From contig JAVXUO010002555.1 of assembly GCA_033065855.1 (NCBI GenBank), positions 1 to 64,000 on the forward strand: 64,000 bases of DNA, in the 5' to 3' direction. This document shows, in pieces, positions 23,721-64,000 of the stretch. Under the pieces are notes generated by a model. That model saw only the letters and a program-made list of their open reading frames with translations, did no database searches and was not told the origin of the DNA. The stretch comes from Escallonia rubra. Taxonomy: Eukaryota > Streptophyta > Magnoliopsida > Escalloniales > Escalloniaceae. The translations under genes were made by a program, and so were the position numbers. How positions within the stretch are numbered: position 1 is the stretch's first letter; each line of letters begins with the position of its first letter.

Positions 23721-23918
23721 TGATGATTTTAGGTTATTAGCTGTGCATTTGAAGTAATTGCGATTATTAATTGATGATTTTAGGTTGCTAATTGATGATT
23801 TTAGATTGTTAATTGTGCATTGAGCATTTGAGATATTGAGATTATTGACGGAGGATGGGACCCAATTAGATTGAATGTGTGATTTTTGTTAATTTTTATT
23901 GCATTGAGCATTTGAGAA

Positions 23919-34875: not shown

Positions 34876-37800
34876 CTGTTAATGAAGTAGCAAAATTTAG
34901 TAGTGTTCCAGTGCTACAGATCAGCAGGATTCAATGGAGATAATCAGCTACTTTGTTCAGAGTGGTCATGAAAGTAAGTAAAATAGTAATGAGAGACGAT
35001 GCGTTTGCAAAAATAGTGATACTTGATATCTGCCTACACCATTTAGTTATTTGAGAACTTGCACATGTAAATTATTTAAAACGATGCTGCAATATGAAAA
35101 CATGTTATACCTATCTATCTAATTGTTTGTGGCAACTTTGTTTGCGTGCATGTGCTTGCATGCAGGATGGACTGATGCAGTAGTGAGGTTCAAGTTATTC
35201 AAAATCTTAGATTGATGAATACTTGAAGTTTATTATTTGTGCACTTATACTTGGAAAATGAATCTGAAATTGTATTTTAAACAGCCGTTGATGCCTAGAA
35301 GCATTACTATTCACAAGGTTGTTTGTAGTTTAAAGGGTTAAACACAGATTGGTACCCCAGAAGTGTACGGAAATCTCACTCGAGGACCAATGTTTTCAGT
35401 ATTTACATGACAGGGTCTGGAGTTCAATTTTGCTATGTCTAAGTATTTCTGTCCAAATCCCTAAGTTTGCTCCAAAACTGTCGGGCAAAAGTGTCAAGTT
35501 TGCTTTTTCTCTCCTCTCTTTTTCTATTTTCCATTCTTCACTTCAGCAGCCCACCCTTCCTCCGCCACCACCACATCCTAAGTCCCACATAACCACCACC
35601 GCCTACCCCGCTCCAAGAAGACGCCACCGCCAAGTCCAACAACCTGCCGTTTCCTGCGGCTGCCTATCCTATTCGGCCCCCCTCCGATGTTAACGCCACC
35701 ACTCTACCCCGGTCCTCTCACCTCTATTTCATTGCATAGGTGGGTAGATCTGGTGGGTTGTGTGTGCTTATGTGTAGGTGTATTTTTTTTTTTTTGGGGG
35801 GGGGTTGGCAAATGGGTGTGCTGTGTGGGTGACTGCATGGTGGTGCGTGATGTGATGGGGTGGTGCAAATGTGAGTGTGTGCACGCAGCTGTGTGTGTGT
35901 GCAGCTGTGTACACAGCTGCGTGTGTGTGGATGTGGGTGATGGGTGATCGAGGTAGGGGGTGGGGACAATGGCGTGTGTTCTCTATGTGTCGCCCGCGTG
36001 GGCCACTGTGGCCGGGGAAGGGGACAGTGCATGTGGCAGTGTAGGGTTTGGTAGGCAGTGGTGTGTGGTGGTGTTCGGTTGGGTTTGGTGGGTTGGGCAG
36101 CAGTGTTGGGTTGGTGGCCGAGAAAGTGGGGATGGCCGGTGGCCGGCGAAGGGGGCGGTGGCCGGTAGTTTTTGCTATAATTATAGGTAAACTAACGTTT
36201 TTGCCCTTGACAGTATAGGAACACAGTCAGGAATTTGGACGGAAAAAAGAGTTAGGTACTTACTAATTGCAAAGTTAAAACTCGAGACCCTGACGCATAA
36301 AAATTGAAAACATGGGTCCTGAAGTGAGATTTTCACCTAGTTTCGGGGTACCAATCTGTATTTAAGCCTAGCTTAAATATATGCCTTATATAGTGATGAC
36401 TCTGAGGTCTTAGTGAGATGATTTGGCTTTCTTCACTTTCTTCTTCTTTCCTCCTCTCATCATTCCATTTGTCACTTTTATTGCTATAACAGATCTCATC
36501 CTCTATCAGTCCCTAGGATTATAAACTGCCAAGCGTGAACATTCTCTAGAATCTAGGAACTTAAGATACCAGAAAAGAGCCTCAGATATTGTTCACGTTT
36601 TAAGTAAAAATACGTGTTTTATGCGCCTTTCATACGACTGTTTTGAAGTATACTTGGTATCATGAACTGAAACCTGAGGCATACTGTTTCATTTCTTTAA
36701 GAGAATGTATTATGCATTGTATATGGCATACTGTACTTTTTGGAACTTAAAACCCGTCATCTTTTTCTCCTCAACTGACACTTAGATTTCTGTGAGAGCA
36801 CTCAAAGGGAATGACGTCCATTTCCCCCAATTTCATGGCTCACCCTTGCCTTTGTTTTATTAAGTAGAGAAAAACACACCACTTTTTGTCTGCCTTTTTT
36901 CCGCCAAAAAGAATATTGTTAAACTATAGTACTTGCTGAACTTTAAAAGGTTAATTTTGAGGTTTTCCGCTTCTGTTAATTTTGAATAATGTGACATTTG
37001 ATAATAGTTTGATTGGTGTATATCAAACATCAATCTTGGCAATTCTTAATTGTTTACAGTGACATACAGTTTTGAATAGAAACCCTGCAAATGTTGTATA
37101 AAGGATCTAGATACTACCTCTGAAGCACGGACACTTCAAAATGGGAGGAGTATCGGGGTCAGGTGCGCATCGGACACGGGTGCGCCTCGGGTGCGTGTCG
37201 GGTGCGCACCCATGATTTTCCATTAATTTTTTTATTTTCCGAAATTCGGGTGCGGCTCGGGTGCGGTTCGGGTGCGTATCCGACACTTCGGGGGCTGAAA
37301 CATAATTTGTAGAAGATATTTCGGGGGTTGAAACATAAAACTTAATTTTTGTGGGGGGTGAAAACATAAAATAATTTAACTAACCAAATTAGGGCACACG
37401 ACTCAGATAGAGAAAGAGAGATCGCAGCAGCCGCGACTTCCCTCGACACCGGCGATCTCCCTCGACGTCGGCAACCTCCCTCGACACCGGCGACGTCCCG
37501 CGACACCCATCGAACAGCCGCGACCACCCACGACCTCACCGAACAGCCGCGACCACCGAAAACCATTGGGGGACCTCCGGCGACTACCGAAAATCTGAGA
37601 GGAGACACTGGAGAGAAGAAGAAGGAGAAGAAGAAGGAAGAGGAAGAAGAAGGAGGAGGAGGGGACTTCCGGCGACCCACTGCGTCGTCCCCCTGCGCCG
37701 AGTCCCGGAGACCCACTGAGGCGAGCGCCGTGCGCCTTCTTCCAGAGAGTCGACCCGTCGATGTGTGAAGTTATCTTCTTATGATTGATGTTATGTTATA

Positions 37801-40800
37801 TTATTTACATATTATTAGTTTTGTTATATTATTTAAGGACCCCCAATGTTAAGTTATTACATAAATCAACCCCAGCATTTCATAGAAATAGAAGTGATAC
37901 CACATAAAAGCTTTATTATGTTCAGTTTTACAATTTTAATATTTATAGAACAACCCATTAAACTTAACTAATTTGGTTGAAAGCTTTAAAATTTACAAAA
38001 GAACCCATTAAACTTAAAAACTCACTACTTTGTTTGGAATATTAATATCTTTTCACATATATCAAACACATATATTATGATTATTAAGATTTAAATTGTT
38101 TAAAAATTAAATACTAAGTATATATAATTAAAAAAAATATTTATAAAATATGCCGTATCCCCGCCGCACCCGTATCCTAGAATTTTTAAAAATGCCGTAT
38201 CCGCGTATCCGCACCCGTGTCGTATCCGCACCCGCACCCGAGTCCGTGCTTCTTAGGATACTACAAATATTGTATTAAGGCTTTCGAAAATTTACACTAA
38301 AGAGGGTGAAAAAGAGATTGACAAGCTAGTTATAAACTAAGAGAAAGGAGAAGGGGAGACTTGAATCATACAAAGTGTATCAAGGATGAAAATCAAAGGC
38401 AGTTAGTAAATAGGACGAAGTTTTAGGCAGAAGGGAATTAACTTTGACAAGTTGTTTAATGGAGAAACCAAGGAGAATTGACAAGAAATTGGAGGTAAAG
38501 GAAGCCTTGGAAGGGATGAAAGTAGGACAGGCTGTTGGAATATGGTATTCCTATTGAGGTCTCGAGATGCGGGCCTAGATCTGTTGACTAGTTGTTTAAC
38601 CATATTTTAAGTATTAAGGAAATGCCAGTTGAGTGGCGGAAAAACACTTTGATACCTTTATAAAAGAAGAAAGGAGATATCCAAAGTTTGGGTATCAAGC
38701 TTATCAGTCAATTGAACATTGACTAAGAAAGGAGACCGAATGTCACTTTTTTTTTTTGTAGAACGCATATGATGCAGTTGGTTCTAGATAAAAGAGGAAT
38801 TCATTGCATAAAATAGGATTTCATTGCCAATATGTTCATGCAATTCAGAATCTGTACGGTGGAGCGGTAACAAGTGTGCGCACCAAGTTTGGGAATGAAA
38901 AACTTGGGCCTCTTTATACTGCCCTTCTTGGGAAATGGCTGTGTAGATTTTTGTCAGAAAGGAATGCTCTGTGGAGGAGATTTGTGGTCAACAAGTTTGG
39001 GGAGGTCGAAGATATTTGGTTTTCTAAGATCATTAGGAGAACTTATGGCTGTAGTCTGTGGCTTGGGATATGCAAGGGGCTTCTTTCTTTTCGTAACCAC
39101 ATTCACTTCGGAATGGGTGGGTTCTGGCTTTATATTTGGTGTGGGGAGGAGGAGCTTAAGAACATTTTCCTTAATTTGTACGGCGTGGCTTGTAATAAAG
39201 AAGCGAAGGTGGCCGATATTTTGTCTAGTTCTGGGGATGTCATAACTTGGAATCCTTTTTTTAGAAGAAAATTGTTCGATTGGGAATTGGACTCTTGTCA
39301 CTCAGTTTTTCGATTTGCTCTATTCTTTAGAGCTTAGTCAGGGTGGTTATGACAAAGTGCTGCATTCTACTGCATGGTCCACTCGCCAAATTGCTGTGGG
39401 ATTTGATTTTCAGTTTGGTGGGTATTAGTTGGGCTATGCATCTTTCGGTTGTGGATTTCCTGAGGAGTTGGTCTCTTTATAATCGCCGGAGGCGAATACG
39501 GAAGCTCTGAGATCTGATTCCACTTTGCCTGTTCTGGTGTGTTTGGAAATAAAAAAAGCTGCCTTAATCGTACTTAAAGGCAGTTTTTTTGCTTTCTCTT
39601 TATGGCTGGGCAGAGGAATCCACTATTGGTTACAGTGAAGCCTATCTTGAGTTCTGGACAGCTTCAAATGTTGTATAGCTGGCTGAGTAGGTATTTTTAT
39701 GTTCATGGGTGTCACCCTCTTGGTGTTCCTTCTTAATACATTTTATTACTTATTGAGAAAAAGACAAGTGTGTAAACCACGGATGGTCTAATTACTTATT
39801 GTCCACTCACAACTGCACTTCACCAAGGATCAACTATAAGCCCATATATCTTCACGTTAGTTATGGATGGCCTTACTGAGTATTTTTAGGATGAGGTCCT
39901 GTGGTGTGTTTTCTTCTATTGATGACATAGTTACAATTGATGATAATCGAGTACGGGTAAATGCAATATTATTGACCTATAGAAGAGTACTTTAGAATCC
40001 AAAGGCTTTAGGTTAAGTAAGACCAAGATCTACTTGGGGTGCAATTTTAGTAAGACTAAGAGGAGGTCTGAGGGTGAAGTAAGCATGGATGGGCAATAAG
40101 TACTTTTGATCTATATCTGCACAAGATTGAAAATTATGAGGATGTTGGCCATAATGTAAGAGCACAAGAGTGCTATGTGGTTCAGAATGCTGGGAAACTA
40201 AGAAACAACATATACAAAGCTGACTGTATCTGAAATGCATATGCTTACGTGGACGGGACGAGGAGGAAGAGAATGGGAAATGAGGATTTTGCAAGGTCGA
40301 GGAAAAGACGAGGGAACAACGCTTGAAATACTTAGGTCACTTCAAACACATCTGCTTGGATTCCGTAGTAGGAAAGAGCGATTTTGCCTAGTAGATGAGG
40401 GAACCAAGAATAACATGGGGAGAAGTTGTAAGAAAAGACTTGAGCTAGGAACTTATTAGGGGATATGTGCTTAGGTGACGGAGAATGGAACAAAAGAATT
40501 CATGTAGCTGATTGCATTTAGTTTGAGGCAAAAAGCCTAGCTAATATATTAATTGTACTTGTCAAGAAAAGCTTAATGATATTAATTACCTTACTAACAT
40601 CTGTACTAAACACATATACACATGAATGCGTACTTTTCCTGTTCCTGTTATTTTATGTCGATTCAACGTACTTTCCAAAAAAAATCTGGACTATACACGT
40701 AGGAACGATTTACCAAATAGTTCCCATGCCGTATTGTACTAGGTTCCACAGCACCACTGAACAAGCTTTCATTCTCTGTTTTCTGCCTCTAAACCATCAC

Positions 40801-43800
40801 AAACGCCTACAGAGTAAAGTCCTACCACCAGATTCCAATTGTGGGACATCCTTATTTTCCTCGCAAAGGTTCTTTCATGCATAAATCACACGCAACTTAA
40901 TCAGGTGGAGAGACCAACAAGGCTTATATCCTTGATTACAAGGCTTTATACGTCCTCACGTTCTGCCAAACTTTCCTCAATGAATGGGCCAAACCATGTG
41001 GATGATTTGAACTAGGAGATGGGAAGACTATAATTTCCCTTCTCTGATGCCAGGTCTTACAAGGCTAATACTAAACTGCATTGTCCGACCTGGGAAAAAC
41101 ATTCTTGACAAGGACGGAGGTCGAGTGGTTAAAGACAGTCAAAAGTTGTATTGAAAGTTCTTGTTGGTCATTCAAGTTTAAGGGAAAGCCTCATACCTTT
41201 TTGGAGGTTGCTAATGATCGAAGTATCTTGCTCTTGAACCTACTTCTATCTACATTTAGTGTTGAGGAACTTTTACAATGAGAGAAGACCTACATCTGCT
41301 TTATATTACTTTTCAGACACTAGTATTGATGAAAACAAGTAACAAGAATGCTTGCACTTGTAGTCTTAGCTCTCGACCATGTCATTTGTCACAACATGCT
41401 GATACATGTCATGGAAAGAAACGTTGCTCGATTGGCTTAGTGATAGGAACAAGTTCGATTATGTCAAAGAAATGATTTACATGTTCGACCCATTCTTTGA
41501 CAGCTTAAGCTTTTAGAGCAAGTGGCAGTTTAAACATAGATCCAAAGCTCACTGTTGCTCTACGTCTTGGGTTTATTTTCTCCCACTTGCCTTTGGCACC
41601 ACTTCTATGTTTCTCATCAAGCAGATACTACATCTATTAGTGCACTTGGCTGCGATGCACCTGAATTATTCTTGTTGATTTGACTTTGTACTTGCAATTA
41701 GGGCTTGTGCCTGAAGTGAGTGCCTAAGCAATAATATACATCTTGGTCCCATTCTCTCACAGCTCAGTGATTAGGTGGTAATCATTGTATTCTAGTTGAA
41801 GAACGAAGGGGCAAGAATCATGTCAGGCAATTCAATTAACTTCGAAATCCAAAAATTGAGGACGAGTAGATGTTGCTGTAGTCAACTTGGCCCAGCCTGA
41901 GTATAATTTAGCCTTTGTTTATGCAAGAAGTTTAGAATGAATGAGTGGATTCCAACCACCAATTATAAACTCTACCTTGACTTTGGCACGGAGCTTTGCT
42001 TTTTATGCTAACACACTCATGGTTAGTGACCTAGCTAATACACTCAAGTGCTCATCTCGTACCAAGTGTCAATCCAAAACCTTGAGTTTCTCATTGAAAA
42101 CAAGTAGTGGAGGTGTGATGAATGGTTTCTGCATTGTGACCTACAAGAGGAGAACTCTGTTCTAAACCTTGACTCTGGCACGAAGCTTTGCTTTTTATGC
42201 TACCACTCCCATGGTCAGTGACCTAGCTAACACACTCAAGTGTACGTCTCGCATCAAGTGTCCATCCATAACCTTAAATTTGTCATTGCCCAAATTTAGT
42301 GGAGGTGTAGCAAATAGCTTCGGCATTGTGATCTACAAGAGGAAGTTTACATGGAGCAACTTCTGGTGTTTTTTGTTTAGGGGAGTCGGAGCTAGTTTGT
42401 TGTTGGAAAAGTTCGGTATGTGATTCCAAGCAGTCTCATAGAGCTTGGTCTGATTGTCTCCTTGTATTGGGGTCAATCCTTTTAGTAGAAGATTGGGCTG
42501 AGTTTAATTGCAATTTATGAGGTTGTAATTTGTCTCTGTTTCCTTTGCCTTCTTTCTAGTTCTCGTTCTCTCTTCTATTTATTGTACGAAGTTGGTTGTC
42601 CCTGTGGTACATGGCTTTCCATTTTTGGTTAGGATAGTTGTGAAGCTATTTGGAAATGGAGCTGTAACTCCCCGAATTTTTTTTATTGGGCTACTAGTGT
42701 AAATAATAATTAGAGAAGTATTGTGACTTTGAACTAAATGTTGGGCATTGGAAAATTTGTTTGGAAGTCCTTTTATTTACAAACTTAATATTTGATATTA
42801 TTTAGTCACTAATGTGAATTAGATTAGACATTAAAATGGATTTTGATTTGGTCTAGGACTTTAGGTTATATTATCAATTACATCAGCAATGATGACTTTA
42901 AGTTATACCATAAATGCATTCGTTATTTAGACTTGAAGTTGTATTATGATTACATTAGCAACTGTAAAGTCGAAGAACACATAAAAGTCTTCATATGTTA
43001 TCGGGGAGAGAGGAGAAGAAAAATAAAAGAATAAGGCATGGTTAAAGACTTTTGCGTTTTCAAACATAAGGTTATGATCTTTCTTAGATAAGAAAGAGAT
43101 TTTTGACGCTAAATTTGCTTGTTTGAGTTAGGGTCCTTATGCACCATTTTTCCTTTACGAGTCGATCAATGTCATTACCTTGATTGTATCGTTTCTAGTC
43201 AATTAGCATCACTTTTTTGTGGTACCATTTCTCTATTATGTCATTAACTGTATGTTGATTTCCTTCTCATTTGGTTACCAAACTTGGTAGTGTACAACTC
43301 CCTAGGTTTCCATGCCTGTGTCTGCCATGAACGTGCCATAAGAGTTAACTCCTTGCACATGATGTATGTATGTACATGGACATACATGACATCAAAAGTT
43401 GTCCTTGAATCCTTTGAACATAACTTTTGACGTTAACATAACTTTTGACGTGTGGCATGTTGATTGTTTGTACACACGTCACTTCCCGATTTGTCCCTTT
43501 TCCTTTAATTTGCACCCAAAACATATCTCACTCATTTGATCTCAGATTAAGCTGATTTTTGTCTCGTTGTATTCATATTTTTTATTTTCTTTAGTTTGAG
43601 TCTACAATGATTATTTTTGGACTCAGAATGAATTTTTGATACATTTATCAAATTAGTTAAATGTGGGTGATACTTGATTATGAAAGTCATTTTTAAGAAA
43701 ATCTTGTCTTATATGGTAAGGATAGTCGTGACACCATTTGGAAATGGAGGTATAACAACCAGGATTCTTTTTATTAGGCTACTTAGGTTTAAATAATAAG

Positions 43801-46800
43801 TAGAAAACTACTATGACTTTGAATTAAGTGTTAGGCTTACAAAATTTGTTTGGAAGTCCTTTTAACTTAGCATTTGATATAATGTAGTCGCTAATGTAAA
43901 TAATATTATACATCAAATAGACATTGACTTAGACTAGGACTTTGACTTTAGGCTATGTTACAATTATATTAATAATGAGGACTTTAAGTTATATTATAAA
44001 TGCATTAGTCATCTCTCTCTCTCTCTCTCTCTCAATTTTAAATTTATATATCTCATTGACATGTGGCATGTTGATTGTTTATACCACATGTCACTTCTTA
44101 ATTTGTGCCTTTTTACTTTGGGAAGTGCATCAATTTTTGTACTTTTAATTCTTACCCAAAACTCTATTTTATGGTATCTTACTCGTCTGATCTTTGATTA
44201 AGCTGATTTTTGTTTTGTTCGATTCAACTTTTCTATCCTCCCCAGTTTGAATGTACTATGACTATTTTTAGACGGAATGAATTTTTCATGTATTTATCAA
44301 GACACTAAATCGTAGGTGATATTCGAATACGAAAGTCACTTCTAAAAATCATGACTTATATGGTAAGGATAGTTGTGACACTATTTGGAAGCAGAGATGT
44401 AACACCCGGAGTTTTAATTTTATCGGGCTACTTGTGTAAATAATAATTAGAAAAGTACTGTGCCTTCAAATCAAGTCTTGAGGCTTAGAAAATTTGTTTG
44501 GAATTCGTTTTATTTACGAACTTAGCATTTGATATTATATAGTCGCTAATGTAAATTAGATTAGACATTAAAATAGACTTGGACTTGGACTAGGACTTTA
44601 GCTTATATTAGAATGCATTAGTAATTAGGATTTTAAGTTGTATTATTACATTAGTAACTAGATAAGGACAAGGATAACATAGTTAAGAGACAGAGAAGTT
44701 AAAAAAATAAAAAACCTTTGTTAGACTTTTGGGTTTCAAGCTTTAGGTTGTGATCGTTTTAAGGTAAGGAGGAGATTTTTGATACTTAATTCACTGCTTT
44801 GGGGTAAGGGTCCTTAGGCGCTATATTTCCTTTACGAGTCGATCAATGTCATATCTTGGTTGTATTCCTTTTTTTTTTTACTCAATCAACACCACTTTTT
44901 TGTGATTTCCTTCTCATTGGGTTTAGACCTGGCAAACGGGTATACCCGCCGGGTACAGGCAATGCCCGGGCGGGTCCGGGTAAAAACGGTCCGGGTAAAA
45001 TTTACCCGGTTTTTTCCGGGTAGCCATTTTTAATGCCCAGACCCTACCCTTGCGGGTCGGGTATTACCCGCGGGTAAATAATTAAATTCTTATTTTTTAA
45101 TAAATATAATTTAATTTACCACATTTTAATAAACTACTAACTAATTAGGCATTTTTTTCCCCTCTGTTTCTTTAGCTTTTTTGAGCTAGGATGTTCTTAT
45201 TTTTAGGAGGCTGATAGAATTATTTTCAATTTCACAAGAAATCAAAGTTAAAATTTATATTAGCTAACACATTAAATAGCGTAACTAATTTCCCACCCAG
45301 AATCCAAAACAAACAATTAATTACAATCTCAATCCCCACTAATAATCCAAAATACAAAACAATCAATCCGAAATACAAAGGTTTTTCAACAGAGATCCAA
45401 CATCACATACATAAATAATCCAAATAAAGTCTTCAATTCCTCGTAGAGTTCCGTGTCAAACTACTGTGAACAGCGGCGCTGCGGTGGTGGGGAAGTGAGT
45501 TTCTCGTTCGGCGGTGGACTGGAAGCTCGGCGGCCGTCGGCGGCCAATCTGTGAGAGGAGATCGACTGACGGACTGAGCGAGGTTGAGGTAGAAAGAGTG
45601 GCGGCGACAGATCTGTGAAGAGAGCGACCGTAGATCTATGAGGAATACTGGAATAGAGAGATCGATGAGGGATAGAGCGACCGCAGAAGAGAGAGGCGGC
45701 AGCAGATCTGTGGGGCCGTGGGGGTAAGGGATGGAGAGGGAGTCGGCAGAGCAGGGCGGTGGCGTTGATTCGTTGAAGAGTGAGGTGGCTAGTCGCTGAT
45801 GAGTGGCAAAAGATAGGTGGCGATCGGCGGTGGCCTGGGGAAGACGGAGTGACGGTTTTCGAAGGCAGAGAGGAATGGGCTGCGTGAGATTGAGAGAGAA
45901 GTGAGACACTGAAAAGTTGAAAATGAGGGTTAGGGCACAAAAGTGCCTTACATAGGCATGAAATCCGGGCAAAACCTGGTAACCTGTTATCCGTCCCGGA
46001 ACTACCCTGAAATTACAGTCCGGGCTGGGTACGGGTCTGATTTTGACGGGTGTCTCATATATGTACCCGTACCCGGGGTTTTTGAACGGGTACGGGCCAA
46101 AAATTTCCAGGTCTAATTGGGTTACCAAACTCGGTATGCACAACTCCCTAGGTTACCATACCTATGTTTGCTTGGATATGCCATAAAAGTTAACTCCTTG
46201 CACATGATGCATGTATGTACATGGACATACATGACGTCAAAAGTTGTCGATGAATTTTTTTGAACACTAGTTTCTATGTTCTGGCATGTTGATTGTTTGT
46301 GCCACATGCCACTTCTTGATCTGTCCTTTTTCGTTTGAGAAGTGCGTCGATTTTTGCGCCTTTAATTCCCACCCCAAACTTTTTTCAACGATATCTTACT
46401 CATCCAATCTCCAATTAAGCTGATTTTTGTTTCGTTGGATTTATATTTTTAATCCTCTTCAGGTTAAGTCTACAGTGACTTTTTTTGGACTTCGAATGAA
46501 TTTTTGATATATTTATCAAATTACTAAAATGGGGGTGATATTCGAATATAAAAGTCGCATTTAAAAATTGTGACTTATATGTGACGCGCTGTCTGCGCTA
46601 TTTGACATGGTATAACCATGATCTTGGTGATGCTTAATAGTAAGCAATTGTTATACGACACTACAAGATTTGATAAATTGTATTTGATAGTTGGCTTATT
46701 GGTTATTTGACCTCCTTTTTGGTGACTTTTGTTATTTGTTTGTGAATTTGATCGAGTTATCTAAATTCCTATTCATTGGCTCTATTTGAAAAGTCAAATG

Positions 46801-49800: not shown

Positions 49801-52800
49801 CCACCTCATGGCTAGAAATGAGACCACCAGCCACAGTGAAATGCTTGTCAAAAGACCAGCATGAATAGCAATGGAAATGATTTGCTAAGCTCTTCCCTAC
49901 ACCAGAAATTATGCCAAATCAGCAACCGTGAACTAGACCCCACAGAGAAACTGATATGCTTCCAATAAGCAGTCAAGCCATGGCTAATACCCAACAATAA
50001 ATTCATACCGGAAGGGGCCCCTACCTCTCTAGCCTATCAAGCAAGCTCCACAACCCCATACTTGCTCACCGCTACCGATCTTCATAAAGCGCCATCCTCC
50101 AGCAAGCATCTCCACCATTTATCAAGCAACACAGCATTAAAGACACTCAAATCTTTCTTCCTTAAACCATCAGGTTTATTGGCGAACATCCATGATCCCA
50201 GTTCACTAAATGGTACTTTCCTTTCTCATCTTCATCGGCTTCCCACAAAACTCATGCTTTAATCCTTCCAGCTTTTGTTTTAGGATCACACCCAAGAGAA
50301 AAGAAACGTAGGCATCACTCTTGAGCATCGCACCCAAGAGAATGATGCATCACAATAGAATGAACAACCGGGATTTCTTACTACCTTCAATTCCTCATTT
50401 CACATATAGTACATCAATTTTTGGAGAAATACTAAAGGGAAAAATAGAGGCTGGAAAAAAATCGCATCTAAAACAACAATTTTTGTCTGCATCATTCATT
50501 TGCGCATCTTATGCATAACTGAATTTGTAGCAAAAAACCACTTGTCAGATCTGATTTTTCCAGAGATGAAACTTGCAATAAAATCAGTCAAAGATCTCTG
50601 CCAGAAATCTTCCAAAATTTTTCATCTCATGTTGGTGATTCCATCTCATGATGGTGGCCCACTAGTGCCTTGAAACTATACCAATTGGCCCCCCAGTTAT
50701 ATTCTATACCAATTGGCCCCCCAGTTATATTCTTTGGGTCTTTTGCTACTCTCTTGGATTGCATCAATGCGTGTCATCAATTCGGATAGGAGAGAAGATG
50801 AATGAGAGAAAGCTATGGATCTGGCTTCCTTTCTTCATGACATGCACTTGTAGGCCAACTTGCAACTTCAAGAGAGTAGAACGACTATCGTGAAAATTTT
50901 AGTGGAATTGCATTCCCCCAATGTTGGAGGTGATCTTTACATACGTATGAGGTTTTGAAATCTTGACATCTTGGATTAACCTAATAGATCCTCGCAAGGG
51001 GGTTACTGTAGTCAGTATTGAATTAAGCTCCTGATTGAATGTTTGACGTGCACTTGCATTTATGTGAGTGTCTAAGCAAACTTCCCATGTATAAATTGAA
51101 CGTTTGACCCACTTTTGCATTGATGAGATAATCAGCCATCATACTCCTAGTGATAGGACTCTTTAGGCGAAAATTTTAGCCATCTTAAATCTTAGGATTT
51201 CTAGTTGACCCTCATGTCTAAAAATGGTATATCATATAAGTGGAGAATAATATGCATGTTTGTTTTGTGTAGACAGCAAATCTTAGGTTATATGCAGCAG
51301 AGAGAAGGTGTTAGGAGAATTGTGTATTAAGTACATTTCCGTTGTTATGATGCTACCCTTACGAATGGTTTTCCTTACCATCTATGAAGCATTATTGTAA
51401 GCAGATGTTATGTGTTCCCTGTTTTATAAACTTTGGCTGATCTCATGATTCTTGGTCATGCATCAATAACTTTAGCTTCTGGTGGTTCCTACATGAATGC
51501 ATGTATATCATGGTACGCATGAGGCAGGAACGGGTAACCTAAAGAAACGCTTCTTTCAATGTGTGCGTCTTTGCCTCTATTGCATTTTTCTCTTCATTTT
51601 AGAGGTGTCTGAAGGGGAATTTTTTTGGATAAAGTATCTTTTTATGCGGTTCTATCAGCACCAATATGTTTTATAATCAAGTCTATTGTGCAATGTTGGT
51701 TTTAGTTGGGAACGCTATATTTTCCTAAAATCTTGTGATTAGTATCTGGTTCCTGGACGTCTACAATGCCAGAAGCTTGGAATACTTATATATTGAGCTA
51801 AGTTGTACTCACTTTAACCCACTCTCTTTCACGATGTTTTCGTTATGCTCTAAAGTCTTGCTTCATTCCGGAAAACTACCGGTTACAATTACTCACTTTA
51901 ACCCACTCTCTTTCACGAAGTTTTCGTTATGCTCTAAAGTCTTGCTTCATTCCGGAAAACTACCGGTTACAATTACTTATATTTTCAATTCAATACGTAC
52001 ATTGCGATGGCAAAATTGTTTTGACGTATTTTAGCCTACCAACTCTCATTTTTAATTCCTTAAAATTAAGCTTGTGCTACTCTTTCAAAACTATCAGCTT
52101 GCGTTTGCGAGTCCTTAGAAGTATGCTTATGCTACTCTTTCAAAACTATCAACATTTTCCACAGTGGAGCTGCTCCTTTCTTTTTTCTAACGCAGCCTCC
52201 TTTTTATCATTGCATCTCACCTCGGCATTACTAAAGAGGGGATGTATGACACTATTAAGATCTTAGACAGCTACAGGATGAAACCAAAGATGGTTAGTAA
52301 TGCTAGTGCCGGATTATCCCTCATGCGCCTTGAATTATCTGTTGTCAATTTCTCCAACTTTGTTTTCCTTGTACAGCCTATTTTGCTCCAAAAATTGTTC
52401 AACAGGGCTTCCTCTTCTGTGACCACTTTGATTCTTCATCTTCTTGGGCCTCTTACCCTTGCAATTACACCTCTTCTTCTTGTTTAATTATGTTTTCATC
52501 TGGAGGGGATGATTTTGCCGCCTCTGCCCAACTGATAGTTGCAAGCTTGACCATTTTTAACAATGCATTGGATGGACAAGGAGCTCTGAGTTGACTGATC
52601 TTGTTGAACCAAAATGTCTTGGCATTGTCCAGTAAGATATCAAGACCATCTTTTTGCCCATGACTAATCTCCTTGTTTTTTCCGTTCTTCTTGTCCCTTT
52701 ATGTCTCCTAGACAGGGGGGAAGAAAAAGGTTCAAATAAATGGATATTTCCGTTGGCCCCTAGAATAACACTACCAAGAATGTTGATCATGTCATCCCTG

Positions 52801-54040: not shown

Positions 54041-55099
54041 CTTGAAATAGTGTCAAAATAGCGTCAGATTAGTGCTTTACAATAATTGCCATTATTGTGC
54101 ATCAGATAGCATCAGCAATGTGTTTTTTTTTTTTTTTTTGGGGGGGGTTGGTTATTGCAGTTCTTTTTCTAGATTCTTAGGTGTATATAGTGATGGTGGA
54201 ATTTTCCAGGTCTACTTTTCACCAGGTTCTTAGGTGTATACAGTGATCGTGCGGTTAGGTTCCTAGACTTGCTTCTATCATAATTTTTATAATGTTGTTT
54301 TTAACCAGTTGAAATTAGTTAAAAAATAAACTAATTGCCACGGCTTGTATAGGTAAGTTAAGATATTTCGCCACAACTTAAGGTTTTCTAGCATGTCTTT
54401 AGACCATGTGTCTCTCCATATGGAGGATAGGCTTTCCTTCCTTTCTCCCTTCGCTTTTAGCAATGTTCGTACCTTTACCATATGACTAATAATCGTTGGA
54501 AAAGAATTGTGTAACATAGATAGGGGAAAATAAGCAAAGAATTTTTAGCTAAGAGAAAAAAACATTGGGACTCAGAACAAACAAGCACGCATATAAATAG
54601 TATGAGCTAACAGATATCTTGAGAATGACAGAAACTTGAATAGTCTGACATAATTTACCTAAAGAAATAGCATATCAATAATTTTAATGCATCACAAATG
54701 TGTGTTATAGAAGAATGATTAGCATAGTGCAAATAACCTCATTCTCATATGGAAATCACAAAATCGCAAAGGAAATAGTTTTACTCCTAAGCTGCTTTGG
54801 TAAAAATTGCAAAAAGAAAGATCCGAGTCAAAGGATGGTGGCAAACAGAGAAGTTCACGTAGTGGACGAGGAGGCTTGGAGGAAAGTGCATGTATGGACT
54901 CAGAATGGTACTGTGCAACATGGGTTTATCAGATGAAAAGGATCAAGTGATAAGGAAAGGACTGGAATGGAATAGGTAGGTAAGAGGATTGTGAAGGAAA
55001 TCGGGCTGGTATTAGATCCCACATTGGATGGTTGTGAGTTTATGAATGGCGTTATAATATCGTCTATTAAACTCACTTGTACTCACTTGGCTAGCCCTT
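54041..55099. other. MADS intron 1 (near exon 2), unassigned
   Basis: Intronic by inference, because exon 1 lies beyond the window. It contains a T-run followed by eight Gs at about 54122-54148. No MADS-domain coding sequence is present on the minus strand, and nothing else was recognised. Confidence 0.45.
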
Positions 55100-56462
55100 T
55101 CCAGAATTAATTGCAACCAGCCTCTAGCTTGGATGCTAATTGCACCCAGTACCTTGAGTTTCAACTTTGGCGACCAGTACTTCGAACTCAAACTTCCTCA
55201 ATCGTAGTTTCTAGCACAAAATAATGGTCAAACTCGATTTTGATCAAACGTTTGCTTATTTTTTTAAGGGCAAAATAGTCGTTTCACTTGTTAAATCCAC
55301 TTTGCATCTAAGTTACTCTATTCCTTCCACCATCATTAGCGCACTAGGCCATTCACCACCACCGCTAGTGCCATACCTACATCCATCTAATCTCTTAGCC
55401 TTACTATCGATTTCCTTTGTCACTTAGCTGATTGTTCCCTCTTCATGACACCCCAAACATATCATTCACTGTCATCACTAATCAAGTCCACCCATTTTAC
55501 ATCGATCATGAGTTTTCTTTTATCAAAACAACCAATTCTTGTTCCCAATTTGAAAAATTAAAACAAGAAAAAGATTTAATTATTATTTTGATGGGACTTG
55601 GCCATTTTTTAGTGGTGAAATCTCTGGCGTTATTCAGCGCCGCTTATCCACTATCTCGGCAGTAATTATGCAGATGGTGGTGCGATTGGTTCAGTGGTAA
55701 TGGGTGGACAATTGCTGTGGTGGTAGAGGTGGTGAGTGGGGTGATCAAAGGAGATTTGTGCTGGTGGTGGTGGTTCGGTGGAGTGGGGTTAGTAATTAGA
55801 GATGGTGGTTGCTGATCAGTGAAGTTGAAAGGGACATGAGAAAGTACTGTTTTGGGTTTAATGGTAGTGGGTCAACAATTGTGGTGATGGATGGCCGATC
55901 AAATGAGGCATGCAATGATGATTGTGCAGTTCGGTTAGGGTGATTGCAACGGTGGTTGTTGATCAGTTAAGTTGAGAGGGAAAGGAGAAAGTGGTGTTTT
56001 GGGTTCAATAGTAGTGCGTTGATGACTATATTGATGGGTTGGGCGATGTAATGAGGTCTGCGATGGTGATGGTGCAGTTGGGTTGGCATGAGGGTAACAG
56101 TGGATGTTGATCGGTGAAGCTAAGGTGTATAGGAAAAATTGGTGGTGGTGGTCGCCTGAGTGTGGTGGTTTTTGTGGATATAGATGATGATAAGTCAAGT
56201 GGGTGGGATGTGGCGAATGAGGGACTATAAAACACAGCTACCACGTGCAGGCAACATGGATGTCATATCATTGAAATAGACAAAGAGAATGTTTTGCCTT
56301 TAATAAACTGACGGGTGTTTGGTCAAGGACGAGTGTAACCTCCATTTGATGCTGGGAACTGTGATCTAGGGAGAGTGAGGTGCCGGATGCCAAAGTTGAA
56401 ATTTCAAGGCACTAGGTGATATAAGCCCCCAAGTTGGAAGTGCTGGGTGCAAGTAATCACCC
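55100..56462. mobile_element. MULE-like element with degenerate long inverted repeats
   Basis: The left arm (55104-55270) and the complement of the right arm (56300-56460) share ATTAATTGCAACCAGC / ATTACTTGCACCCAGC. They also share TTTCAACTTTGGC, GTCAAACTCG / GTTACACTCG and AAGGGCAAAATAGTC / AAAGGCAAAACATTC. The repeat is about 160 bp and imperfect. The interior has a roughly 150-bp GGT-rich tandem motif repeated (TGATCAGTGAAGTTGAAAGG, TGATCAGTTAAGTTGAGAGG). No confident target-site duplication, so the exact ends are uncertain. Confidence 0.65.
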
Positions 56463-56950
56463 TTTTCAAAGAGGCATCGCGTATTGCATTGTGGTGAGAA
56501 TGTGGATTTTGGTTGTATTAGAGCTGACTTTAGGAAGCTCATCTGGGTCGGGTAATCAGGGTATCGATGGCTTACGTATAACACTTTAGGCTAGAGAGCG
56601 AGTTCCTACGCAATGTCTATTAATGGGTTTATAACGCAGATTGATTGCGACATCCCCATTCGATGAGAAGGAAATTGCAGTGGGTTTATAAGGAAAAGAT
56701 ATTACATTAAGTGTGTACATTGATATTTGTCTTATAAGAACCTGTTAAAAATTTCCTAGTATTAAGTTAACTAGTGCACTTGAACGAGACATTTTTCAGA
56801 GGTGGGGCTGTGGGCCTCTGTTGGTGCAGATGGTATTATTGGTATCAGAGTCGAGTCTTCAAACCCGACCTTCAGGTCGGTTCGTTTGGCCAGGTTGGCT
56901 ATAGGAGTCTGACATTAAATAATTGGGTCCCGTTGTCTAGTTGGGTTATC

Positions 56951-57150
56951 TTTTTTTTTTTTGGTTAGACCACCCGGTTTCCGGACACCACATTGGGAGC
57001 CGACTAATCCGGGTTCGAGCCGGGCAGGACCACATGGGCGGCAAAGCTCTCCCTACTAAGTTTTAACACAGCTGCATTCCCAGGGCTCGAACACGAGACC
57101 TCTGGTTAAGCTAGGACAACCCCTTACCAGTTGACCTACGCGCTTGGTGG
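56951..57150 (-). mobile_element. tRNA-derived SINE (Au-like)
   Basis: A 200-bp element on the minus strand. Its 5' region has an A-box-like GGTCAACTGGTAAGG and a B-box GTTCGAGCC. The 3' region contains GGCTCGAACCCGGATTAGTC and ends in an A12-13 tail (T run at 56951). It is flanked by a perfect 17-bp duplication TGTCTAGTTGGGTTATC (56934-56950 and 57151-57167). The 3' motif recalls the widespread plant Au SINE; family membership is from memory and should be aligned. Confidence 0.9.
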
Positions 57151-57578
57151 TGTCTAGTTGGGTTATCGATGAGTCCTATGTGTTGCCTTCTTTTGCCGTA
57201 ATCCCTAGGCTATTTTTAACAAGGTTAATAACTAGAGTTATATTCCAAGATCCTACATTGGATGTGACGGTGTGTGATTGACTTTGTAAAATCTGTCAAC
57301 GAATTTTTTGTGCCTACTAGCTAACACTTTTGAGTGTCATTCTCCTTTGGTGGAGTTGTGGACTTGGATTGTTACAGATGTAAATATGAGCTATCACTAA
57401 AACTTTGTTCTTTGTTTGCAACATGTTTTCAAATTCTTTTTTTTTTCAACCAGTTGGCCTTCAGTTAAGTTACACTCTGACCAAGAAAACATTCTTGTGG
57501 GCCATGAGTTTATCGTTGTCACCGTCCCTTTCACCCAGGATGGTACTTTATGGATCTTTTGAAAGTCCTTTTTCTTTT

Positions 57579-59028
57579 GGGTTAATGACAAAACTGTCCA
57601 TTGAGATTTACACGTATTTGCAATTCACTCCCCGTGTTTACAATTTTGGCAATAGTCTTCCTTTAGGTTGACAAAATTAACGTAAACGACTCCAAATTGG
57701 ATGGCTGTTCAATTTTGGAAGTTAAATCCACATATGCGGTGCACATGCCATTTTACCATGGGCAAAAATGTCATTTCCCCTACACCCATCATCCCTTTCT
57801 CACTCTTTTCCTCTGCTTCTTCTCTTCTCGCACATGCCATTTTGGCATGGGCAAATATGTCATTTTCCCTACACCCTTCTTCCCTTTCTCACTCTATTCC
57901 TCTGCTTCTTCTTCTTCTCTCCTATGTCTCTCTCTCTCTCTCTCTCTCTCCTAATCTCAATCTGCACAAGAATGGAACTGGAATTAATCTCAACTGTTCC
58001 ATTAATTCGAAATTGCTCCCAAGGTTCCGTAAAATACTAACATATCTAAATCGTAAGAATGGAACTTGAATTAATTAGAGTGACATGATAAAGCAAAATA
58101 ATAACGCTGAAAGAAGTCATTGAACTCGAAGGATTATTAGCCGGGCAGAATAATGCTTTTCACTAAGAATTTCAAATCAATTTGTGAGAAAGGGGAATAG
58201 ATTGATTAGATGTCATAGCTTATAAATAAACCTCCGGCTCACACAAACCCTAACTGCAACGATCAGATTTGTACTTCTCTCTCATTTAAAGTTCCAACAT
58301 TTCATTATGTTAATCAATCAAGGCCCATGAATTCATCCAATTCAAGCTACAAACCAACTGGGTTTCGCAATTCGAGAGAAATGAATGGTGGTTTTGGGTT
58401 CAAGTTTCACGTAGCTGGGTCGAATTCGGGCCTTTCCCGGCCATGGTTTCAGAAGGTGCGAAACAGTCTCGCATCGGCCAACCTCGACGCCCTCTTCAGA
58501 GAGGTTAAAACCTGATCTGAGTTTTGATTTCTTGAACCCTAGCTCAAAGCAAAGTAAGAGATGAGTTGACATGTTAAGCAAATGGGCAATGCTTTTCGTT
58601 TGAATTTCAAAATTCTGAAATGCGAAAATTGCTCCCTGCTTCAAGTCATTAACCCATATACAGATTCAGAAAAGCATCGCCGCCAATGGCATTCTTTAGC
58701 ATCAATTAAGATGTATTCAAAGCTCAAACGATTAGAATTGGAATGCATGTCAATAGAAGTATTGTTTGATCGAGTTTGTGCTGATTGATATTTTTTTAGA
58801 GAGGGGAGATGGGGAAATGAGGTAGGGGAAATGACAGATTTGTCCATGCCCAAAACGGCATGCACCCCACATGCGGACTTAACGTCCAAAATTGAACGGC
58901 CATCCAATTTTGGAGCCATTTGCAATGGATTTGTTAATCCTCGGGGAACACTATTACCCAAGTTGCAAACACGGGGAGCGAAAGTCCAAATACGTGTAAA
59001 CATCAGGGGACAGTTTTGTCATTAACCC
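57579..59028. mobile_element. MULE with about 220-bp TIRs, possible Pack-MULE
   Basis: The 1450-bp element has both termini reading GGGTTAATGACAAAACTGTC. The inverted repeats run about 220 bp (TTTACACGTATTTG, CTCCCCGTGTTT, CAAATTGGATGGC, GTCATTTCCCCTACAC). It is flanked by a perfect 9-bp duplication TTTTCTTTT (57570-57578 and 59029-59037). Just inside the left TIR a roughly 90-bp segment (CATGCCATTTTACCATGGGC) is repeated once, followed by a (TC)n tract at 57926-57951. The interior contains a short plus frame at 58327-58515 and no transposase. Confidence 0.93.
58327..58515 (+). other. Unidentified 62-codon frame within the MULE
   Basis: It begins MNSSNSSYKPTGFRNSREM and contains SRPWFQKVRNSLASANLDAL. 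Codon usage and GC content are more gene-like than the surroundings. It could be a captured host exon or chance; an antisense frame of 100 codons covers the same DNA. I do not recognise a family. Confidence 0.3.
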
Positions 59029-59290
59029 TTTTCTTTTTATGTGTAAACATCAAGGGACAAAAGAAAAGAGAGAACACAGTCAATGGCTGGCAAGCCCGTT
59101 GGTATCTTCATTGCCACAATCTCTAGTATCACCTCCGGCATGCATGACATGTAAATTCTCAAGGGGAACACTTGATGTTATTAATTATGTCAGCTCTCTT
59201 ACATTTGTAGCCTACAAGAGTTTATTATATGCCTACAAGAACCCTTAACAACCCATAATTAGTTCTTAAAGGTCTTTTCACACACCCTTA

Positions 59291-59592
59291 GGCCCCGTAC
59301 GCTTACCATATTTGTTTTCTGTTTTCATTTTCATGATTTTCATATTCACTTTGAAAATTCGTTCCTGTACTTTTATCATTTTCACAAAAAAAAAATTAAC
59401 TATTTTTTCTTATATTGGGTTAAGTTTGAGTGAAAAAAGCTGAAAACACATTTTAGGTGTTTTTAGTTTTTTGTTACTATTTGAGTAATTTTATTCAAAA
59501 CGAAAACAGAAAGTGGTAAAAATACGCAAAAAAGAATCTTTTTCATCATCATTGCTAAAAACAGAAAACGAATATGGTAAGCGTACGGGGCC
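59291..59592. mobile_element. Tourist-type (PIF/Harbinger) MITE
   Basis: The 302-bp palindromic element has ends GGCCCCGTACGCTTACCATA, the right end being its near-perfect complement (TATGGTAAGCGTACGGGGCC). It is flanked by TTA on both sides (59288-59290 and 59593-59595). A TTA target site plus a GGCCC terminus is diagnostic of Tourist MITEs. The arms remain complementary well inwards (GTTTTCTGTTTTC / GAAAACAGAAAAC). It is non-coding. Confidence 0.92.
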
Positions 59593-59599
59593 TTAGCTT

Positions 59600-59793
59600 T
59601 TAGGGGTGAACACGGTTCGGTTGGGAGTCAAACCGCAAACCAAACAGTTACTCTTTGGTTTGAAAATTTTTGGAACGAATCGAGGCAAACACTATCAGTT
59701 TGGATGGTGCGATTTAGTCAGTTTAAACGGTTTGGTTTGGTCGGTTTGGATCGGTTTGCTCCTGTTTTTAGAGGTTGTCGGTTTGCACACCTA
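59600..59793. mobile_element. Probable hAT-like MITE
   Basis: The left end AGGGGTGAACACGGTTCGGT and right end GTCGGTTTGCACACCTAC form short imperfect inverted repeats. The body is rich in GGTTTGG/CGGTTTGGATCGG motifs, as in common plant hAT MITEs. Its target-site duplication is not clear. It starts directly after the Tourist MITE. Confidence 0.5.
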
Positions 59794-61379
59794 CAAGCAA
59801 ATATACATATACATATTGTTAAAATAAAAGTTATATTCTATCTAAATTGCACTTAATCTTTTTATATTTAATATCTAGGTGCTCTTGTTAACATGAGATA
59901 TAAGTATTATATCTTGGCTTCTTTATAAGCTGTAACCATAAAAAATATGAAAAATGATTTCCTTAACTCTCATGTGACACCTCTTAAATGCACAACCTTT
60001 CCAACCTTACAACACCCATGCTACTCGACCCACCTTGGCCTAAACCTTAATGAAGTTGCCTCACTTGGATTCAACTTTAACACCTGAACCAAATGATGCC
60101 CAACTTATCATGGCTCTTTGTTTGGGCACAAAAAATGATCGGGAAAAAAGATAAATCCCAATTAGTATAATTTTGTTCAAGACCAGTCCATGTGTGTCAA
60201 CTTGGAAAAAGCCAGACCGCAGTATAGTGCACGGTCACTACTCGCCTGTCAAATATTCATACTGACCAAGATAATCATGATTTCAGTTCTATGGAGTCGT
60301 GGAAGTACTTGATGCAGCTTGGTCCATATATTATGGCTATCTGACATCTCAGCCTTACAAAAATCAATCAGTGCTGAACTTCAACCTGCCGTACCATCTG
60401 TACATGAGAAGGTGTCATACTGATCTCCACCACCTGAAACCTCACGACAATCTTTCTTTCGAAAGCACCCAAATTTAAAGATGAAGAACTTGATGAAACT
60501 GACAAGAACCAAGGGCCAAGTGATTCCACGACAATATTGGACATCATTTGCCCCTACCCAACATCGTTTCTTGGATTACACATGCAGCTAAACGAAGGAC
60601 CTTGAAGATCATATTAGGACCAAGCCATCCGATAGCAAAGCAAAAACCTCTTTGCTTATTCCAAGAAGCGCAAATGTGAAGTGATTCTGACGGACTCCAG
60701 GGATAACCTTGTTAACCCTTTATTAGGGAAAAAAATGCAAGGGATAGGCTGCCATTAACACCAAGCAGTCCCTTCGTGAAGTTTATGATGTTCATCATGT
60801 TGCTCTCCTCTCGTCGATGGCAGGTTCTATTCCTTTTTTATACCTCTGCATGTCATTCTTACTTTCTATAGCCAGCTTGTACTTTTTGTTTTACTAGAAC
60901 TATAATTGAAAAAAATAAAAAAAAAGCTCCTTTTATTTACTTATACAACCCTTGAAATGGCCACGGTTGAAAGCAGTCAACAGTTTTCCTTTGCTGGTTA
61001 GCCAAACCACCTGCCCTTCAAATTTAGAAACCTCCGTCTTCTTAACCCTTAGGTTTTGAACGTTGCTCCTCTACAACAACACGACCTAAATGACTATCCT
61101 TAGTTCCCCGAAAGGTTTAAACGGTAAGAGATTTGATCAAAAATTTTAAGTTGAATATATATATATATTCAAAAAGCTCTTTTGCTTGTGCATGTCGGAA
61201 GGTATTTTGGCGGGCTCTGGGTAGGTTGGCAACCTCAACAAGATTTTCTTTCGATATGGTTTCACTTTCTTTGCTGGTTTTGACCCAATCTACTCATCGG
61301 AAGGTATTGTGGCGGGCTCTGGATAGGTTGGCAACCTCACATAGTTCTCTACAGTTAATTTAAGACTGTAACTTTATCC
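59794..61379. other. MADS intron 1, mostly unassigned
   Basis: No coding or RNA gene was recognised. A 55-bp segment (TCGGAAGGTATTTTGGCGGG... to GGTTGGCAACCTCA) occurs twice, at about 61195 and 61298. The remainder shows no clear repeat structure. Confidence 0.4.
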
Positions 61380-64000
61380 TTCTCAATATTTATTTCTTGC
61401 CTCGTTTAGAGTGGTGGGTTGTGTCATTTATGGTCACCTTACCGTTTCTTGTCACAAAGACACCTAGCTTCTTTAAGCAATTTTCTTGGCCCTATCCCGG
61501 GCCCAATCCTAGTATGTGCTAGGTCCACTTGCCTACTGAGCAATGTCTCACTGTCTTATATCCCTGATCTCTTTTCTTTTTTACTTTCGCACATACCTTG
61601 GGGCTGATTCATTTGGCCAGAATTAGCCTCACTTTCTTCTGGACCAGCAATCAGGTAGGTGGGGCTTATACCTTTGAAAAGAATGATAAAGCATTGGTTA
61701 TCCTTGATTGGCTTAGACTCCATCCTAGAGCTTGCACTAAAAATCTTGGCATTCAAGTCTGTGATCACGCTCCCATTTGAGTGCTCGCTCCTTTGGTCCT
61801 CGAAAATACCTTCCGAATTCTAGGCCTCCTGTTTGTTGTATCTTGGATGCCTACCCTTGATCGAGTCAGTTTGGAAATATAAATTGTCCGGGTCCTTTAT
61901 ATTTTGTGTTCTTCAGAACAGGAAAAATGATGAAATCTCTGTCTCTGGAACAAAAGTACCTTTGGTAACAGCACTGCCCAGATTGAAGATACCAGTCACA
62001 AACTACTTGTTGTCCAATCTGATTTCCCTGATCCAGAAGCTCTCGCACGACACCGCTCTCTGACCAATCCTTTGGATTGGCTACTCGACTAAAAGGAACT
62101 TTTTTGGGCTTAAAAAAAATGCTCCGTACATGGATGTGGGGTGGTGATAGAAATACTAATTAATATGTTTCATACTTCTACCTTGATTCGTCAAGCCCGT
62201 AACCGTGTCGTTGGATTATATGATATGTCAGCCTGATATACTGAAGTCTCAAGAATTACACACATTTAAGTCGCTCACTTTGCACGTGTTAAGAGAATCC
62301 ACTGCAAGTAATGAGTCCATTCGTGGAACTCCTCCCTTGTTAATACCATCTCTATTATCCTTTCTCCTATCAATTTCTGAAATTCTCCGTTCTTGAGTAG
62401 AGAAGTGAAAAAGGCAATACTTGATTGGCACCTCTTAAATCTTCTGGTTCGAATGATATCTCGCCGGTGGCCTATCAGAAAAAGCTAGCATTTTGTTAAG
62501 GATGGCATCAGTACTACAGCTTTATCTCATACATGTTTACTGAGTTTAGCTTCTCCTACATCTCTTTCATTCTAAAATCTTCCTTAATAGACCATTGGAT
62601 TTTAGACCGATCAGTCTTTACAATATGCAAAAGGTCTCACTAACAGAATCAAGTGGATTTTTCCATCTCTGATCTCCCCCTTTCAAAATGCCTTCGTAGA
62701 TAATCGTGTTATCTCAGGTAATATTCTCACTACCTAGGAGCGAGCTTAGATAATTCAAACAAAGAAAAAAGGTAAGACAGGAATGGAGGCATTAAAAATT
62801 GATACAATCAAGGCATCTGATTGCTGACTGAATTTACTGAACAAGTTCTTAGAAAAGTTGGGTTTTAGGGATTTTGGAATCGTTTTCTCATTGACTATAT
62901 ATCACACGTGTACTATTGAATATTGATCAATGGATCACCTTTTGTGTTTATCCTTTGTACATAAGTATTACATACAGCTTGACTCGCGTTGATGTCCTAT
63001 TGAATATTGATCAATGGATCACCCTCTTGTCATATACACCCAAGTAATAAAATCTAACACGATGATTCATTATCACCTTTTATGTTTATCCTTTGTACAT
63101 AAGTATTATATACAGCTTGACTCGCGTTGAAAAACTCAAACGAATTCGAGGAATCCAGTTTGGAATCTTGACACCACCGATTAACCACGTCATGTTTGCA
63201 GATGAAAATATTGTTCTTCCATCTAGACTTCTTAAATTACGAAATTCTGAAGCTTATTTTCAACTTTACCGTAATATATGGTCAACTCATCAACTTTGAA
63301 AAATTATCACTGTTGTGCAGTCCCAACGTTAGCCTTGAATTGCAAGCATATATACAGCAGCCTGTTTTGGAATTCAAGCATCAACACTCTTCGCTAAATG
63401 CGCAGGATTGAAGGGACTTCCTTAATAAAGCTCACGAACTACTCTTATTACTTCAGTACTTTCTAGTTTGCTTGTTTATGACAATCCTTTCTTTTCCTTG
63501 TAAGAGTGTAATAAACTCAATACAATTTCCAGTTGTTTCTGGTGGTGAGACTTTTAAAAAGAGTCTCCACCTAATTAACGGGTTCTTTTTATGCGGCTTA
63601 AAATCCATAGAGGCTTCGGCTTCTAAGAAGTCAAAACTTTTCAACTTGGCCCTCTTGGCGAAAGTAAGATGGCGTGAATTATTCTATCTCCATCATCCCT
63701 CACAAGTCATGTGTTCAAAGCCTAGTATTGTAAAACAAGACCTTTTACCCGACTAGTCATTAACGAAGTTTGTTCTCGAGCCTGGATAGGCATGATGAGG
63801 CCGTTTGAGATTGATATTTAAAAGTAAATTTTGGCTTATCAACCATGACAAACAACCACCAGGTTCCTTCCGTTGCCTCTCTCTGAAAATGATTCACTAC
63901 AATTTGCCTAATCTTGTGTTGCCAAGGAAAGATGGTTCGTTGCCACGTAGAGGTGCCACAAAGGATGCAGTCTGAGTTGGCTTCTGAGTAGGCAAAGTGG
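61380..64000 (+). mobile_element. Degenerate L1 LINE ORF2, continuing past the edge
   Basis: An endonuclease remnant lies at 61600-61780 (FFWTSNQVGGAYTFEKNDKA, CDHAPI). RT blocks follow: FRPISL at about 62602, SPFQNAFVDNRVIS near 62680, and a degraded GLRQGDPLSPY region replaced by a duplication (62930-63130). A catalytic box lies at 63194-63205, reading FADE. Then come INFEKLSLLCSPN near 63285-63320 and the post-RT KSIEASASKKSKLFNLALLA near 63600-63660. Many stops and shifts make it non-functional. The 3' end lies beyond the window. Confidence 0.85.
62912..63124. repeat. Local direct duplications inside the L1
   Basis: GTTTATCCTTTGTACATAAG with TACAGCTTGACTCGCGTTGA occurs at about 62946-62993 and again at 63079-63130. 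TATTGAATATTGATCAATGG occurs at about 62915 and 62998. The block replaces sequence expected between the RT catalytic motifs. Confidence 0.8.

Follow-up and report, generated by a model that had tools for sequence, protein, structure and literature searches.

An apparently intact AGL17-like MADS-box gene with introns of 20 and 19 kb in Escallonia rubra

The stretch analysed here, the window, comprises the first 64,000 nucleotides of contig JAVXUO010002555.1 (C987) of Escallonia rubra, taken from a 566-Mb assembly with 3,222 contigs (GCA_033065855.1). The 40 kb of C987 past the window were also scanned, and neither part contains any N. The minus strand very probably carries an intact AGL17-like MIKC gene of eight exons, in which introns 1 and 2 would have been enlarged by insertions to 20,332 and 19,083 bp. 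The coding sequence of 720 nt encodes a predicted protein of 239 amino acids and is spread over 40,777 bp.

Gene model and close paralogs

The original prediction was made from the window and described six in-phase minus-strand exons of one MADS gene. All six were recovered: exon 2 (I domain, 53959-54037, 79 nt), exon 3 (start of the K domain, 34814-34875, 62 nt), exons 4 and 5 (K domain, 34434-34533, 100 nt, and 34322-34363, 42 nt), exon 6 (34150-34233, 84 nt) and exon 7 (C domain, 33882-34036, 155 nt). They are flanked by GT/AG and their phase is continuous. The spliced exons match the K-box PF01486 at E = 1.9e-29, in the same frame as the MADS box and downstream of it, so the exon set is not due to chance. 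The solved K domains of AGAMOUS, SEPALLATA3 and SVP are matched as well (E 6.8e-15 to 5.7e-8).

No MADS box was found in the window, where the best match (E 1.4) extends across 12 residues. It had been argued from this that intron 1 must exceed 9.9 kb, and a minus-strand MADS exon ending in phase 2 was forecast past position 64000. This exon 1 is indeed present at C987 74370-74551 (minus strand, 182 nt, ending in phase 2). It reads MGRGKIVIRRIDN...YDYAST followed by two bases, has the donor gtcatg and gives a PF00319 match of 90.1 bits. Its product is identical to that of the paralog on contig C2053 at 57 of 60 residues, and to what we take to be a typical AGL17-like MADS domain at 54 of 60.

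The exon list had to be amended at two points. Exon 8 (33775-33790, minus strand, 16 nt) had been omitted; it lies behind an intron of 91 nt and finishes the protein with ...KLGLQLH and a stop. The pattern occurs a single time in the 104 kb of C987, both strands included. Reading through the exon 7 donor leads to an immediate stop (GGG TGA), a possible reason for taking exon 7 as the last one. Exon 2 had been started at 54040, while 54037 is the most likely position because exon 2 measures 79 nt in the two closest paralogs, where no AG lies three bases ahead of it. The alternative acceptor is the upstream half of a NAGNAG, 3 nt upstream and in frame, and adds one serine; with the resulting 82-nt exon 2, exons 2-8 amount to 180 codons including the stop and the protein to 240 amino acids.

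These paralogs, on C1389 and C2053, have the same lengths for the first five exons (182/79/62/100/42, with boundaries placed at GT/AG sites). In C2053 the gene also ends with GLQLH and a stop, in equal phase and after a 97-nt intron. Exon 6 of the C987 gene consists of two similar 42-nt halves and is equally long in C2053. In the C1389 exon 6 (160372-160413) the second half is only partly recognisable, and a possible GT donor follows the first half in C987.

Exon 4 agrees with both paralogs at 25 of 34 residues and with AG, SEP3 and eight other K-box genes of the genome at no more than 18 of 34; for ANR1, in the sequence we assume for it, the figure is 21 of 34. Exon 8 supplies a GLQLH-type C terminus, which is typical of the AGL17 clade and is also found at the end of ANR1 and OsMADS23/25/27/57/61. 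The gene thus appears AGL17-like, where the label comes from resemblance and not from a tree of named references.

Divergence was calculated from 507 nt, comprising exons 1-5 plus the first of the two halves of exon 6. The nonsynonymous values (dN) were 0.131 against C1389 and 0.128 against C2053, and the synonymous values (dS) 1.67 and 3.12, that is, saturated. These are NG86 figures, as YN00 gave values for two of the six comparisons; for the MADS exon, the NG86 dS was undefined in both comparisons with C987. The low dN supports purifying selection, which would have acted over most of the time since duplication. Splice sites and frames are intact over the whole 720 nt, as had been claimed. 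From the exons and their order we are confident that the locus represents an intact MIKC MADS-box gene, apparently ordinary apart from its introns.

Two giant introns and their insertions

Intron 1 extends over C987 54038-74369, with 54038-64000 inside the window. Intron 2, between the I and K domains, occupies 34876-53958, and its predicted length of 19,083 bp was exact. For a comparison across the genome, each K-box match was paired with the MADS match that lies closest upstream, provided that contig and strand agree. There are at least 36 K-box matches (35 above the curated cut-off) and at least 110 MADS matches, both numbers being lower bounds; 43 of the 110 MADS matches entered the pairing, including the correctly oriented ones of K-box contigs. 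The result was 33 pairs, with three K-box matches left unpaired. The C987 gene shows the largest MADS-to-K-box distance of all 33, with 39,837 bp against 21,084 bp for the second and a median of 8,465 bp. The number of 33 overstates the number of genes, since the pairs on C73/C1909, C2182/C2183 and perhaps C1570/C2134 look like duplicate assembly copies.

In the paralogs, introns 1 and 2 measure 5,869 and 7,577 bp (C1389) and 2,221 and 14,896 bp (C2053). Intron 2 is therefore long in all three genes, which does not hold for intron 1 (2.2 kb in C2053).

For five insertions, target duplications could be verified: two are MULE-like, two hAT-like and one Tourist-like. One of them is nested in an older multicopy repeat, which brings the insertions in the window to six, fewer than the seven or more that the original prediction had dated by duplications or nesting. 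We assigned the superfamily names on the assumption that duplication length and end motifs are diagnostic.

In intron 2, a MULE-like element of 1,034 bp (35335-36368) is flanked by TAGTTTAAA and TAGCTTAAA, which agree at 8 of 9 positions. The hAT-like element at 37118-38256 (1,139 bp) has a perfect 8-bp duplication, GATACTAC. Among the best 40 of 1,960 candidates, 17 nearly full-length genome copies are 90-99% identical to it, two of them, located elsewhere, at 99%, which indicates a recent insertion. A stretch similar to part of this element (37960-38234; 79% over 279 bp) is also present in intron 2 of C2053 (405328-420223). An open frame of 543 bp on the plus strand (38792-39334), without Pfam match, presumably resembles the 3' part of a plant long interspersed nuclear element (LINE). 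The older multicopy repeat covers 42663-47198, limits set where the genome matches stop; it is mostly 71-76% identical to its genome copies and contains internal tandem repeats, and no acceptable target duplication was found for it. The second hAT-like element (44924-46115, 1,192 bp) is nested therein, with the duplication ATTGGGTT (8/8) and inverted ends TAGACCTGG; its best genome copy is 96% identical (best 40 of 2,776 candidates). Another 8-bp pair, AACGGGTA (44943/46084), was dropped in favour of ATTGGGTT, because the latter coincides with inverted ends that match each other and lies close to where the genome copies stop.

Intron 1 contains a MULE-like element of 1,450 bp (57579-59028), whose terminal inverted repeats measure 223 bp and are 79% identical; its 9-bp duplication, TTTTCTTTT, is perfect. 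The element is multicopy, with copies sharing the same two ends (best 40 of 1,402 candidates). A Tourist-like miniature inverted-repeat transposable element (MITE) of 302 bp follows at 59291-59592, flanked by TTA, and 39 further copies were found at 92-97% (best 40 of 4,135 candidates). Past the window, intron 1 continues with a multicopy stretch that reaches C987 65293, followed by a second one of 4.8 kb (65293-70104), whose best copies reach 95-96% (best 39 of 8,030 candidates).

A strict scan for terminal inverted repeats gave nothing. A looser scan returned one MULE-like element per intron and 0 matches in 20 Markov controls each; it misses both hAT-like elements and the MITE, the ends of which were taken from the genome copies. 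None of eight intron open frames scanned matched a transposon domain, and a search for CACTA and long terminal repeat start motifs yielded nothing firm.

Competing readings of the locus

Intron 2 was probably long beforehand, as in the two closest paralogs. Repeated insertion of MULE-like, hAT-like and Tourist-like DNA transposons, together with other repeats, would then have brought introns 1 and 2 to 20.3 and 19.1 kb. We infer that the giant introns are removed normally and that the full-length protein is made.

Several points weigh against this reading. The gene model was read from genomic sequence alone, and in the paralog on C1389 the 6 kb that follow exon 6 showed no exon 8. Because dS is saturated, a recent loss of constraint would go unnoticed. 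The earlier claim that the gene is still under selection thus holds for the long-term average, given a dN of 0.13, intact frames and intact splice sites, and does not extend to present constraint. The recognised repeats add up to about 9.0 kb of the 19.1 kb of intron 2 (about 47%, including the presumed LINE-like frame) and about 7.9 kb of the 20.3 kb of intron 1 (about 39%), both sums being lower bounds, with 54041-57578 outside the searched stretches. As this is roughly half or less of each intron, the description "transposon-packed" was too strong. Within 47200-53958, genome matches are confined to about 48900-50650, at 64-75% over stretches above 145 bp (36 of 36 candidates scored). No matches were found for 47200-48900 and 50650-53958; a missing match does not prove rarity, as old repeats may be too worn to be recognised. 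In the search of 36369-41900 the scored candidates all hit the hAT-like stretch (query positions about 740-1900), so that it is uninformative for 38257-41900, and the search of 59029-64000 says little past one abundant family. Finally, the size of intron 2 itself counts here, as I-K introns above 9-10 kb were proposed to possibly end transcription (Liu et al. 2020, PMC7382388, in the part available to us).

As a separate observation, two 84-bp tandem copies at 98% identity (51806-51977), a recent local duplication, lie where intron 2 gave no genome match.

Following the proposal of Liu et al., the 19-kb I-K intron might often halt transcription or splicing, so that the locus would mainly make a short protein of MADS and I domains (M-I), as was proposed for the ZmTMM1-like grass genes. 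Read-through of exon 2 adds V-I-F before a stop and would give such a product of 90 amino acids, and the same text (PMC7382388) describes a role in lateral roots for the truncated ZmTMM1 and ANR1S. We nevertheless consider this unlikely. Both the K and the C exons are undamaged and keep the phase, and conservation of the K exons relative to the paralogs is not what one would expect of untranslated sequence. The read-through tail differs in each paralog, and intron 2 shows no enrichment of AATAAA, with 17 occurrences against a mononucleotide-shuffle mean of 19.65. Moreover, a Balanophora FLC gene with a first intron of 56 kb is reported as expressed in the portion of that study drawn on here (PMC9197559). 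A related and similarly doubtful idea is that the I-K intron serves as a gate, where some transcripts end inside it and yield the TMM1-like M-I protein of 90 amino acids without the K region, the rest yield the full MIKC protein, and insertions tune the ratio.

It is quite improbable that the gene is a recent pseudogene which was silenced by the insertions and has yet to accumulate visible damage: at least one insertion is very recent, with 99% identity to two other copies, yet frame and splice sites are intact over 720 nt and dN is low. Least of all do we expect a misassembly in which exon 1, exon 2 and exons 3-8 of separate loci were joined by repeats, since, although intron repeats are up to 99% identical to distant copies, every piece is in phase with the next, exons 3-7 are matched at no more than 81% at 32 of the 35 other K-box places (a comparison made for these exons and not for exon 1), both paralogs share exon order and sizes, no N is present and matching target duplications flank the insertions.

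Surroundings of the gene and comparison with known systems

Grass AGL17-like genes are targets of miR444, and barley MIR444c lies opposite HvMADS27 (PMC9511987, accessible part). With the rice miR444 sequences available from PMC2292181, a degenerate miR444-like site was found in exon 3 (34840-34861); it differs from five of the six rice forms by 3-4 mismatches and from the remaining one by 8, and the AAGCTT core is altered. Exon 3 of the C2053 paralog (420224-420285) contains a closer site with two mismatches, both U:G, to miR444c.1. Membership of a miR444-regulated subgroup with a near-perfect site was considered and rejected on account of the degenerate site. The second hairpin arm was searched on the opposite strand: the 104 kb of C987 gave one match, 30 kb off and with 8 mismatches in 24 nt, the window gave four with 6 mismatches in 21-22 nt, judged to be chance, and none was found in 30 kb of each paralog. 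A miR444 natural-antisense locus was rejected in view of the degenerate site and the lack of a convincing second arm in these searches; the closer site in C2053 weighs against this rejection. The C987 gene may still be weakly targeted by miR444 in trans. An Rfam scan gave nothing at the gathering score and a tRNA scan was empty.

About 19 kb from the 3' end of the MADS gene, pieces of a polysaccharide lyase family 4 gene lie on the plus strand (12356-14470) with domains II and III (6.1e-23 and 7e-20). Further away, a LINE-type reverse transcriptase with zf-RVT is distributed over three open frames (796-3305, plus strand), and fragments of a Copia-like element occupy 6312-7636 on the minus strand (Pol_BBD 1.7e-10; the gag match is below the cut-off). 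The window also contains a direct tandem duplication of 2.2 kb at 88% identity (16107-18309 and 18301-20464) and, at 22593-23729, CCCTAA-like units in a degenerate tandem array whose periods include 39, 51, 65 and 189 bp.

The C987 gene shares the MADS-I-K-C layout and the long I-K intron with the AGL17-like genes ANR1 and OsMADS23/25/27/57/61. It differs in a longer intron 2 (19.1 kb), the degenerate miR444-like site and the lack of a convincing antisense arm. According to the consulted part of Liu et al. (2020, PMC7382388), this intron measures 1,137-2,133 bp in Arabidopsis; the rice genes, with the exception of OsMADS25, have 2,755-5,184 bp. Some ZmTMM1-like truncated AGL17-like genes described there also have an oversized I-K gap, whereas the C987 gene possesses K and C exons that are intact and continue the phase.

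Rarity is weaker than the original prediction implied, as intron 2 is also long in both close paralogs and the literature contains longer MADS introns. In Moso bamboo, PeMADS1, 2, 6 and 7 likewise have long introns with many transposons, two genes carrying introns of about 60 kb, longer than those of C987; the part of that paper at hand reports no AGL17 members (PMC6122543). Giant transposon-rich MADS introns are published for lily too (PMC13026598, as far as its available text goes). Balanophora also has MADS genes with very long first introns, in this case FLC homologues with 64 and 56 kb, and expression of BgloMADS12 is reported (PMC9197559). Giant transposon-rich MADS introns are thus already known, and the C987 gene adds another case.

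The gene is extreme among the MADS/K-box pairs of its genome and offers a clean example of a regulatory gene that retains frame and splice sites while its introns absorb DNA transposons both recent and old. It may be split by annotation programs, which the available text of Liu et al. (PMC7382388) reports for OsMADS61 and ZmMADS2. If the I-K intron does act as a gate, a single intact gene would show how intron size and truncation are connected, a link suggested by Liu et al. for separate truncated grass genes. With graded intron 2 sizes of 7.6, 14.9 and 19.1 kb in three paralogs, this link would be testable in one plant.

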